A DNA stretch of 64,000 nt, from contig NZ_LT629693.1 of the NCBI RefSeq assembly GCF_900099825.1, positions 2,480,001 through 2,544,000 of the forward strand, written 5' to 3'. Of the stretch, positions 9,189-13,168 are shown in pieces; the first letter of the stretch is position 1, and each line of letters opens with the position of its first letter. Made by a program: the position numbers and the translations under genes. This stretch comes from Bradyrhizobium ottawaense (GTDB lineage: Bacteria; Pseudomonadota; Alphaproteobacteria; Rhizobiales; Xanthobacteraceae). The notes beneath the pieces were generated by a model. It saw only the letters and a list, made by a program, of their open reading frames with translations, had not been told where the DNA came from and did not search any database.

Positions 9189-10298
9189 ATGACCACGTTC
9201 ACGCCGCATCAGGATTCCGCGCTCAAGGCCGTTGCCGACTGGATGAAGGCCAAGCCCGGCAGGAACGGCACGCCGCCGGTGTTCCGGCTGTTCGGCTATG
9301 CCGGAACCGGCAAGACCACGCTGGCGCGGCACATAGCCGACGGCGTCGACGGCGAGGTGAAGTTCGCCGCCTTCACCGGCAAGGCGGCGCTGGTGATGCG
9401 CAACAAGGGCTGCGACAACGCCTCCACGATCCACTCGCTGATCTACCGCGCGCGCGAATCCGGCGTCGAGCAGCCGAGTTTTGAGCTGTGGGACGACGCG
9501 CCGGCCTCGAAGGCCAAACTGATCGTGATCGACGAATGTTCGATGGTGGATGCGGAACTGGGCCGCGACCTGATGTCGTTCGACTGTCCGCTGCTGGTGC
9601 TCGGCGACCCCGCGCAATTGCCGCCGATCCAGGGCGGCGGCTTCTTCACTGAGAACGAACCCGACGCGATGCTGACCGAGGTGCATCGCCAGGCGCAGGA
9701 CGATCCGATCGTACGGATGTCGATGGATATCCGCGAAGGCCGCGAGCTCGAGATCGGCCGCCACGGCGAGAGCGAAGTCGTCTCGCGCAACGAGCTCGAT
9801 CCGGACCGGGTGATGCAAGCCGACCAGGTGCTGGTCGGGCGCAACAACACCCGCCGCGCCTACAACATGCGGGTGCGGCAGAAGCAGAACATCGAGGATC
9901 CGTTGCCGGTCGCGGGCGACAAGCTGGTGTGCCTGCGCAACAACCGCAAGAAAGGCCTGTTCAACGGCGGGCTGTGGCGGGTGAAGTCGCGGGCGCAGTC
10001 GAAATCCAAGATCATCACCATGCGGCTGTCGCCGGATGAGGATTTCGGCCACAAGGTGACCAAGGTCTCGGTGCGCGGCGACTGCTTCGGCGGCGCCATC
10101 GAGACCATCCCGTGGGAGCAGCGCAAGCCCTACGACGAGTTCGACTATGGCTACGTGCTGACCGTGCACAAGTCACAGGGCTCGCAGTGGGATGACGTCG
10201 TATTGTTCGACGAAAGCTTTGCCTTCCAGGAGAGCCGCGCCCGGTGGCTTTACACCGGCATCACGCGTGCGGCGAAACGGCTGAGCGTGGTGGTTTAG
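9189..10298 (+). CDS. Stand-alone SF1 DNA helicase, Dda/RecD-like
   Basis: A 369-residue superfamily-1 helicase. Motifs in order: Walker A GYAGTGKTTLARH near residue 37, motif Ia FTGKAALVM, motif II IVIDECSMV, motif III GDPAQLPPI, an HRQAQDDP block, and the UvrD-like C-terminal motifs TVHKSQGSQWDDVVLFDES and YTGITRA. It is much shorter than RecD or RecD2 and resembles the T4 Dda architecture, with no N-terminal extension and no nuclease domain. Likely a 5'-3' helicase in repair or replication restart, inferred from the family. It is divergent from the monooxygenase gene and followed by a palindromic repeat. Confidence 0.85.
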   Translation: MTTFTPHQDSALKAVADWMKAKPGRNGTPPVFRLFGYAGTGKTTLARHIADGVDGEVKFAAFTGKAALVMRNKGCDNASTIHSLIYRARESGVEQPSFELWDDAPASKAKLIVIDECSMVDAELGRDLMSFDCPLLVLGDPAQLPPIQGGGFFTENEPDAMLTEVHRQAQDDPIVRMSMDIREGRELEIGRHGESEVVSRNELDPDRVMQADQVLVGRNNTRRAYNMRVRQKQNIEDPLPVAGDKLVCLRNNRKKGLFNGGLWRVKSRAQSKSKIITMRLSPDEDFGHKVTKVSVRGDCFGGAIETIPWEQRKPYDEFDYGYVLTVHKSQGSQWDDVVLFDESFAFQESRARWLYTGITRAAKRLSVVV

Positions 10299-10315
10299 GA
10301 CGCCCTCGCCACAAG

Positions 10316-10440
10316 CCATCCTCATCCTGAGGAGCCGCGAAGCGGCGTCTCGAAGGATGGGCCGCGGGCCTCATGGTTCGCCCGGCGATGCGAAGCATCG
10401 TCCGGAGACGGCGCTAACGCGCCTCCTCACCATGAGGAAT
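10316..10440. repeat. Intergenic palindromic repeat, cctcatcctgaggag family
   Basis: Outer arms catcctcatcctgaggag and its near complement ctcctcaccatgaggaat enclose nested short hairpins (ccgcgaagcggc; gatgcgaagcatc). It separates the helicase gene from the end of the caspase gene. Similar elements are widespread in Bradyrhizobium and Rhodopseudomonas. Confidence 0.7.
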
Positions 10441-10442
10441 AA

Positions 10443-12170
10443 TCACTTCCCCGCCACGAAGTAAAAATCCTCGCGCCCGGGCGGCGAGCCGTAGGTGAAC
10501 GGCTGCTGCGCGTGGTTGGTGGCCTTCCAGACGTCATCGCGGACGATGTCGAACAGTTTTCGCACTTCAACCTTGGGCTCCCTGATATCGCGCGCGAGGA
10601 CGGTCGCGAACGGGCTGTTGGCGGCCTCACCGTCGAGCGCGGTTTCACCATGCTTGGCGGCCTAGACCACCATGAACCCGGCTTCCGGTTCGATGTTGGA
10701 AAGGCCCTTGCTGACCAGCTTCAGCGCTATGGTGCGCCGCATGGTTTTCTCAAAGGGATTGTCGCGGCAGGCGTCCAGCAAGACGAGCTTGAGCTTGCGC
10801 GCGCCGGCGACCGCGGCGATCACCTGCTCCAGCGCCACCGCCTGCGACTCGGCGTCGTGGTCGGTCGCGAGCCTTGCATCGGTCGGGATCAAATAATTCA
10901 CCCCGCCAATCTCCATGGCGTGACCGGCATAATAAACCACCGCCCAGTCGAATTTTTCGGCCTCCGCGCCAAACGTGCGCAAGGCCGAAAAGAAATTGTC
11001 GCGGGTAAGGTCGGGCGCAAGCGTCACGGTCGCAAAGCCGATACCGCGAAACGTGTCGGCGATCAGCCTGGCGTCGCGCGGCGGGTTGTCGAGCTGCCGC
11101 ACGTTCTTGTAGCCGCCATTGCCGATGATCAGCGCCACCTTGCGGAGACCCGATGGCGGCTCCGGCGCCGCGCCCTTTCCCTGAGCCGGCTTGGGAGTCG
11201 ATGCTGGAGGCGGCGCGGCCGCGACCAGCGCCGCGAGCCGATCTTTCGCGAAACGGCGCGCGATCGCGGTGTCGGTATCGTCAACCTTCGTCAGCGTCGC
11301 GCTCGCGGACCGGTAATCGTAGCGCGCGGCCGCGGCGTCACCCTTCTTCTCGTAGTATTGCCCGCGCCCGGCATGCGCCCGTATGTTGTTCGGGGCGATC
11401 CTGATCGCCTCGTTGTAGTCGGCCAGCGCGGCATCGAGGTCACCCTTGGCAAGATAGGCATTGGCCCGGCTGGTCAGCACATAGACGTTTTTCGGCATTT
11501 TCGCGAGCACCACGTTGCAGTCCGCGAGCGCCTCGTCGAACCGCTTCATCTCGGTGTAGGCAATGCAGCGGTTCGACGGAACCTGCGGTCCGTCCGCGTT
11601 GAGCTTCTGCGCTTCGGAAAAATCGGCGAGTGCGGCGTCGTATTGCTTGAGCAGCGTTTCGGCGCGCGCGCGGTTGGTAAGATGGGTGTAGCGGTTCGGG
11701 CTGGTCGGGCCAAATTTGATCGCGGCATTGAATTCATCGAGGGCGCGCGGGAAGTCGAGCCTGCGCAGGAAGATGATGCCGCGGTTGTTGTAGGCGCTCG
11801 CAAAATTCGGACGCATCTGCAGACACAGGTCGTAGTCGGCGAGCGCATGCTCGTCGTCGCCCTTGCTGCTGTAGGCGATGCCGCGCGAATTGACGTATCC
11901 GACGTTATCGGGGTCGGTGTCGTGCGCCTTGCCGAAGGCATCGATCGCGCTGTGGTAATCGCGCTTCTTCATGAAGGAGTCGCCGATGACCTGATAGGCC
12001 GCCGCCCTCGGCTTCCCGGTGATGGTGTCATCCACCGTCACCGCCGAACAGGCGACAAGCCTGGCCTCGGATTCCGCGGCCGGGTCCCGGCAGGTATCAA
12101 TATCCGCAGCCGCCAGCACGGGGCCCATGCCGACAAGCGCGACGATCGCTACGAACAGGGCGCGCAACAT
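10443..12170 (-). pseudogene. TPR-containing caspase-family (peptidase C14) protein, interrupted by in-frame TAG
   Basis: Frame from 12170 codes for a signal peptide (MLRALFVAIVALVGMGPVLA), about six TPR-like helical repeats to residue ~290, a Pro/Ala-rich linker, and a caspase p20 domain from about residue 342. His of VVYYAGHAME (about 417) and Cys of LLDACRDNPF (about 468) form the expected dyad. A TAG at 10662-10664 ends translation after residue 502. The same frame continues without a break for 72 more family-like codons (AAKHGETALDGEAANSPFAT ... GREDFYFVAGK) to a TGA at 10443. Relatives have Tyr at this site, one base from TAG. So this is either a recent nonsense mutation, a sequencing error, or a truncated enzyme. 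An earlier start at 12224 is possible. Confidence 0.85.
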
Positions 12171-12448
12171 TCGCGAACGCTCCGGCGGATGCAGATTGGT
12201 CGCTGGAGGCGACCGCGAGTTCATTGTTGGAAGGGACGAACGGCCGGGTCGAGCGCGGTTCCCACCTTGTCCTGACCCTTGCTCTAAATCATTGCAGCCA
12301 CGCGATTTTATTCACGAACTCGTGTGAAACGAGTCGTAACAAAACCTGTCGTCGGCCGTATCTTGGGGCATCGGGGAGAACCGTGCCGATTGCGAAACAC
12401 GGCTCCCGCTCTAAACTGCCCCCCAACCCGCCCGCCCAAGAGGAAACC

Positions 12449-13168
12449 ATGTCCCCTCGCCGCTTCAGCCGTCTTTCGCTCTGCGCCGCCGCCATCGGTG
12501 CGCTGGTCATTGCCGCGTTCGCCATCGCGCCCTCGCTTGCCGCCGAAGAGGCCGTGATCATTCCCGCCCCCACTGCCGACGCGCAAGGCGCCGGCGGAAT
12601 CCAGACCGCGGTCATCGCCGGCGGCTGTTTCTGGGGCGTCCAGGGCGTGTTCCAGCACACCGCCGGCGTGGTCAATGCGGTGTCCGGCTATGCCGGCGGC
12701 AGCAAGGCCACCGCCGACTACAGCACGGTTTCGACCGGAACGACGGGACACGCGGAATCGGTCGAGATCAAGTTCGACCCGAAGAAGATCAGCTACGGCA
12801 AGATTCTGCAGATCTTCTTCTCGGTCGCGCACGATCCGACCCAGCTGAACCGCCAGGGCCCGGATAGCGGCACGCAATACCGCTCGGCGATCTTCACCAC
12901 CAATGACGAGCAGAAGAAGGTCGCGGAGGCCTATGTCGCCCAGCTCAACACCGCCAAGGTGTACAAGAAGCCGATCGTGACCAAGATCGGCCCACTGGAG
13001 GCGTTCTATCCGGCGGAAGCCTATCACCAGGACTACCTGACGCTGCACCCGAACCAGCCCTATATTGCCTATAACGACATCCCGAAGGTCGAGAACCTGA
13101 AGAAGATCTTTGCGGAAAGCTACATCGAGAAGCCGACGCTGGTGAGCAACGCGAAGGTCACCAACTGA
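12449..13168 (+). CDS. msrA: Peptide-methionine (S)-S-oxide reductase, exported form
   Basis: A 239-residue MsrA that repairs the S-epimer of methionine sulfoxide. The catalytic Cys is in AGGCFWGVQGVFQH, followed by GYAGGSKATADYSTVSTGTT, GHAESVEIKFDP, and the QYRSAIF and AYHQDYL blocks. The first ~33 residues form a Sec-type signal peptide (MSPRRFSRLSLCAAAIGALV ... SLAAEE), so it should act in the periplasm. Start 12449 follows AGAGGAAACC. msrB lies 113 bases downstream on the same strand with a palindromic repeat between. A possible ECF-type promoter upstream is only tentative. Confidence 0.93.
   Translation: MSPRRFSRLSLCAAAIGALVIAAFAIAPSLAAEEAVIIPAPTADAQGAGGIQTAVIAGGCFWGVQGVFQHTAGVVNAVSGYAGGSKATADYSTVSTGTTGHAESVEIKFDPKKISYGKILQIFFSVAHDPTQLNRQGPDSGTQYRSAIFTTNDEQKKVAEAYVAQLNTAKVYKKPIVTKIGPLEAFYPAEAYHQDYLTLHPNQPYIAYNDIPKVENLKKIFAESYIEKPTLVSNAKVTN

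Follow-up and report, generated by a model that had tools for sequence, protein, structure and literature searches.

The minus-strand gene at 10443..12170 of the window (the whole 64,000-nucleotide stretch analysed) is a TPR-caspase frame of 575 codons plus TGA, broken at codon 503 by a premature in-frame TAG (10662..10664, minus strand). We regard it as very probably a young nonsense pseudogene that arose from a single-base change, one event in the repeated loss, within the genus, of a dispensable gene. The frame is called orthocaspase-like by analogy with the proteins treated in portions of PMC6426788 and PMC5756287. Re-reading the minus strand confirmed the TAG reported in the initial annotation, in a frame that otherwise stays open for 72 further codons to the natural stop, a TGA at 10443-10445. 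The start at 12170 agrees in alignment with the starts of close relatives, and with this shared start the product sizes are 502 and 575 residues, as had been claimed; an alternative upstream in-frame ATG at 12224 gives 520 residues.

The open part of the gene (10665..12170, minus strand, 502 codons) contains a leader, TPR repeats, a linker and most of a Peptidase_C14 domain. By eye, the N-terminal leader has a secreted look. The TPR-repeat region has approximate limits of 11301..11996 (minus strand; Pfam TPR_1 2e-33 and others), and PF00656 Peptidase_C14 is matched at 10743..11144 (minus strand) over profile positions 1-139 of 233 with an E-value of 7.3e-21. The C14 domain is interrupted rather than complete: the severed 72-codon tail (10446..10661, minus strand) matches Peptidase_C14 on its own at profile positions 167-225 of 233 (E 9.2e-5), and among the best-listed relatives it belongs to the better conserved, largely invariant parts of the family. 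This match, together with a dN/dS of 0.027 against the sister genome G241, bears out the reading of the tail as genuine caspase C-terminal coding sequence. A PADLOC search gave only a weak caspase match (E 0.00069), and therefore no defence system is claimed.

The catalytic dyad was initially described as intact, which holds in part. The codons for His417 (10920..10922, minus strand) and Cys468 (10767..10769, minus strand) are kept, and each residue is the same in 120/120 best-listed relatives. The adjoining codon 418 of the HG motif (10917..10919, minus strand) encodes Ala here, at a position that is Gly in 120/120 relatives and in the nine paralogs of the same genome that were read. In caspase-1, the oxyanion hole is formed by Gly238 and Cys285, according to the portion of PMC10088814 available; judged from its place beside the histidine, codon 418 would correspond to that glycine. 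The accompanying statement that these proteins need both p20 and p10 parts proved too strong, since the published classifications, as far as PMC6426788 and PMC5756287 were accessible, include prokaryotic orthocaspases without a metacaspase-type p10; what stands is that the lost tail lies within the conserved C14 domain. Any protein made from the broken gene would have 502 residues, lacking the last 72 of the C14 fold and carrying Ala at an otherwise invariant Gly. Because it would lack the end of the C14 fold and have Ala418, this product is, on sequence grounds, most likely inactive.

The stop appears to be recent and private to this strain. From 7995 candidates scored, 1247 homologs were retained and the best 120 of 1247 were aligned. 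As the initial annotation had expected, codon 503 is Tyr in 119/120 of these best-listed relatives, that is, in every one that reaches the site; the remaining one (P0056) has a gap there, ending at residue 490. Tyr is also found at codon 503 in the 29 orthologous loci compared with that of the window and in the sister G241, where the codon is TAC, in agreement with the proposed one-base origin from TAC to TAG. The nine paralogs have Phe (8/9) or Tyr (1/9) at this codon. The closest known relative, P0001, is a full-length (575 aa) protein of metagenomic origin with 98% identity and Tyr at position 503, and therefore the stop is taken to be recent and private; nine more relatives are 85-90% identical and 569-575 aa long. 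Thirteen residues differ between the window protein and P0001. The window stands alone against P0001 and the nine relatives at six of them (73, 377, 407, 418, 503 and 516, the last being Thr or Ser in the other sequences), P0001 stands alone at two, and five could not be placed. Homologs that naturally end at residue 502 were also considered and rejected: there are none among the 120 best-listed relatives. P0056, which ends at 490, comes from an assembly whose longest listed contig has 3,242 bases, so that a stop and a contig end are indistinguishable. P0012 has an internal gap of ~47 residues, P0040 seems to have a frameshift at its start, and P0076 seems to have one at each end; these three and P0056 were left out of the genome census described below.

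Substitution patterns are compatible with a recent break. In the tail beyond the stop, the window and G241 are separated by 10 synonymous changes and a single non-synonymous one (dN/dS 0.027), compared with dN/dS values of 0.160 for the whole caspase gene, 0.013 for the neighbouring helicase and 0.107 for msrA. Most of the tail divergence is therefore older than the stop, and the low value would fit a recent stop event. General relaxation on the window branch was sought through dN/dS and through counts of unique residues, and none was found beyond codons 418 and 503. The branch has no clear excess of non-synonymous changes (9 non-synonymous and 7 synonymous, versus 10 and 11, with 39 and 81 unplaceable). 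A leave-one-out comparison counted 4 unique residues in the window protein, a number inside the 0-9 range of its 12 nearest relatives; for columns with a conservation of 95% or more the count is 2, compared with 0-2 in the relatives. That decay is absent outside codons 418 and 503 is compatible with a very recent event, and with a sequencing error as well.

The caspase gene occupies a fixed site. Upstream lies msrA (12449..13168, plus strand; PMSR domain, PF01625, E 1e-60), separated from the caspase gene by a divergent intergenic region common to both (12171..12448); downstream lies an AAA/UvrD-like helicase (9189..10298, plus strand; PF13604, PF13538), which served as control and tree gene. 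Twenty of the 20 relatives compared, three of them repeat genomes, have msrB, msrA, the caspase gene (broken in a few) and the helicase together. Across 72 genomes with an uninterrupted gene and a located helicase, the helicase is at most 400 bp away in 55 and at most 2 kb away in 68; it is further than 2 kb in 2 and on another contig in 2. Three relatives have two neighbouring copies of the caspase gene (G217:C1:296782-300228, G076:C2:832607-836080 and G078:C23:26385-29836), and the site thus gains copies as well as losing them. A palindromic-looking intergenic repeat at 10306-10440 directly follows the natural TGA of the broken gene; it has 57 matches in the genome, itself included and some being pieces of one copy, and does not follow the caspase gene in G241.

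A census of 265 genomes of the genus, with a match threshold of 1e-100, identified 160 matching genomes, 141 of which have a near-full-length caspase gene without a stop. G007 is counted as intact, the TGA seen there being upstream of the gene. Point lesions are present in 8 of the 265 genomes: the nonsense codon of the window, and frameshifts at different codons of the same gene in seven others. These were read exactly in G241 (codon 237), G065 (361), G235 (372) and G092 (388), and approximately in G120 (~140), G184 (~198) and G111 (519-526), the first two of these placed by the change of frame between two hits and the third by alignment with a distant relative. In draft or metagenome-assembled genomes, errors of assembly may account for some of these breaks. 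G065 (L144), G235 (L143) and G092 (L142) are related, and each has a one-base frameshift at the start of the caspase domain in an otherwise well-preserved gene, all three sites falling within 28 codons. A shared frameshift site was rejected for these three: the codons differ, and the events are therefore separate. Their clustering may reflect chance or a mutable stretch. Two further observations concern individual loci: L089 is frame-shifted in the middle of the caspase gene, and L080 (3001-4620), a metagenome-assembled Bradyrhizobium outside the census count, has frame changes near both gene ends that may be assembly errors.

The remaining matching genomes have either partial matches (G143 and G177, the latter running to a contig end) or a match through a paralog only (9 genomes). 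The last group, with the 105 genomes without a match, makes 114 genomes lacking the full gene, and in these the helicase side was inspected for remnants. Remnants were found in 10/114 (G050, G033, G066, G053, G164, G161, G212, G258, G263 and G187), three of them only 20-25 residues long. In 83/114, the inspected stretch has both msrA and the helicase, and a search at E 1e-3 detected nothing of the gene. The other 21/114 give no information: msrA is missing from the inspected stretch in 15, and the helicase is partial in 4 and unmatched in 2. The helicase served as a control for stops only: it was matched in 192/194 distinct genomes, six of the matches being partial, with 0 internal stops, although it is perhaps too essential to make a fair control.

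We mapped these states on a helicase tree of 114 rows, from which rows lacking a complete helicase on the stretch had been dropped. The gene state is known for 103 rows: 28 intact (27 orthologous loci and L136, to be set against the 141 intact genomes overall), 6 broken (5 of the census 8 plus L080), 6 of the 10 remnant sites and 63 absent; 11 rows without information were excluded from the change count. Moving between intact and not intact takes a minimum of 14 changes on this tree, and starred branches force 6 of these; support is mixed, with 25/111 inner branches starred. Change counts are blind to gain versus loss; the remnants and frameshifts show loss for their own rows. The clade of the window (four rows, support 98) has four different states: a nonsense codon in the window, a frameshift in G241, a deletion in G138 that removes the gene body and keeps 131 bp of the upstream region, and an intact copy in the metagenome-assembled G173.

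Several explanations compete with loss of function. Suppressor-dependent read-through was proposed in the initial annotation, and an amber suppressor tRNA or a recoded TAG would yield some full-length protein from a frame that is open and conserved after the stop. The search for such a tRNA was run: none of the 51 tRNA hits (RF00005) in the genome has a CUA anticodon, ARAGORN typed 50 of them, and the odd hit outside that typing has, by our own reading, the anticodon GTC. RF1 is encoded (prfA, above cut-off at G000:C1:4170170-4171216), and the conservation of the tail is accounted for by recent origin because the 98% identical relative is intact. The odd hit is a tRNA-like gene outside the window (G000:C1:3460166-3460272, L110), which we read as Asp (GTC). 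Its anticodon loop carries ~34 inserted bases that are able to fold into a hairpin, and of 60 genomes of the genus only that of the window has this gene whole. A phase-variable switch had also been put forward, and a reversible or cassette-type switch would suit the single-base breaks of the same gene in several genomes. The lesions are at different codons across genomes, however; neither tandem repeats nor any repeat at the stop codon are present in the locus examined, and the genome has no near-identical second copy, the closest paralog being 49% identical. With no CUA tRNA among the hits, RF1 present and neither a repeat nor a near-identical copy, both proposals are therefore unsupported; read-through almost certainly does not operate here, and a switch has a negligible probability.

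It is improbable that the stop is a sequencing or assembly error and the gene intact in the organism. The one-base difference in an otherwise constrained-looking gene and the intact state of the closest known relative speak for such an error; against it stand a closed assembly of one contig (8,339,115 bases, completeness listed as 100%), the nature of the stop as a substitution and not a homopolymer indel, a further change, also private, that affects an invariant site 85 codons away, and independent lesions of the same gene in other genomes. We infer that the stop is a true mutation. Still less probable is a functional 502-residue protein, in which the TPR part binds partners or the p20-like core works without the tail. 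The TPR region and both dyad residues do remain, orthocaspases without a metacaspase-type p10 have been described, and Rhizobiales often have pseudo-orthocaspases that are presumed to be inactive (both in the portion of PMC6426788 available). None of the 120 best-listed relatives ends at residue 502, however (one ends at 490), the lost segment belongs to a largely invariant C14 domain, and Gly418 is lost too. Loss of function, also among the initial proposals, is the one upheld, by Tyr in all homologs that reach the site, the intact 98% allele, Ala418 and the independent lesions in relatives. It is unlikely, though less so than either of these two readings, that the gene is more than dispensable and its inactivation is repeatedly favoured, for example in culture, on a host, or after phage or stress pressure has gone. 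On that reading, an old and otherwise constrained death-protease-like gene would be kept in some lineages and silenced by independent young lesions in others, a pattern as expected of a costly altruistic or defence protease.

The preferred reading of a young nonsense pseudogene can be stated as follows. In a TPR-orthocaspase-like gene, a single-base change would have replaced the Tyr503 codon by TAG. The caspase gene at the msrA/helicase site is read as dispensable, lesions and deletions having removed it on many occasions in the genus, and its loss would be tolerated because other caspase-domain genes remain. More than 12 other caspase-domain loci are present in the genome, including two adjacent ones at G000:C1:5497029-5499784, and this redundancy may make the loss tolerable. 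A literature search, judged by title, found no work on caspase pseudogenes in Bradyrhizobium. The published view of the scattered occurrence of caspase homologs, as given in the portion of PMC3501461 available, leaned towards gains, and repeated loss at a fixed site is worth noting for that reason. Within one genus, the different lesions and the remnants, all flanked by the same neighbours, show that repeated loss contributes to the scatter. The site is thereby well suited to studying the cost of the protease and the conditions under which it is of benefit.

The finding itself is ordinary in kind, and the pattern of parallel loss is mildly interesting. An ordinary bacterial nonsense pseudogene has a single premature stop in a frame that is otherwise preserved, with close relatives intact. 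The window gene is of the same kind; what stands out is the frequency of breakage and loss of this one gene within the genus. Nonsense pseudogenes are common, and the locus is more useful than the lesion. Compared with TPR-type orthocaspases, or putative bacterial metacaspases (PF00656), the gene has the same C14 domain, His-Cys dyad and N-terminal TPR repeats, whereas the window copy has a stop inside C14 and no Gly beside the catalytic His. In a 2012 survey of bacterial caspase homologs, the four domains most often combined with them include TPR_1 and TPR_2, as far as the available part of PMC3501461 reports. The pseudo-orthocaspases of Rhizobiales, described in the accessible portion of PMC6426788, belong to the same order and are likewise caspase homologs probably without protease activity; they are defined there by a replaced dyad, whereas in the window gene both dyad residues remain and the break in the frame affects a single strain.
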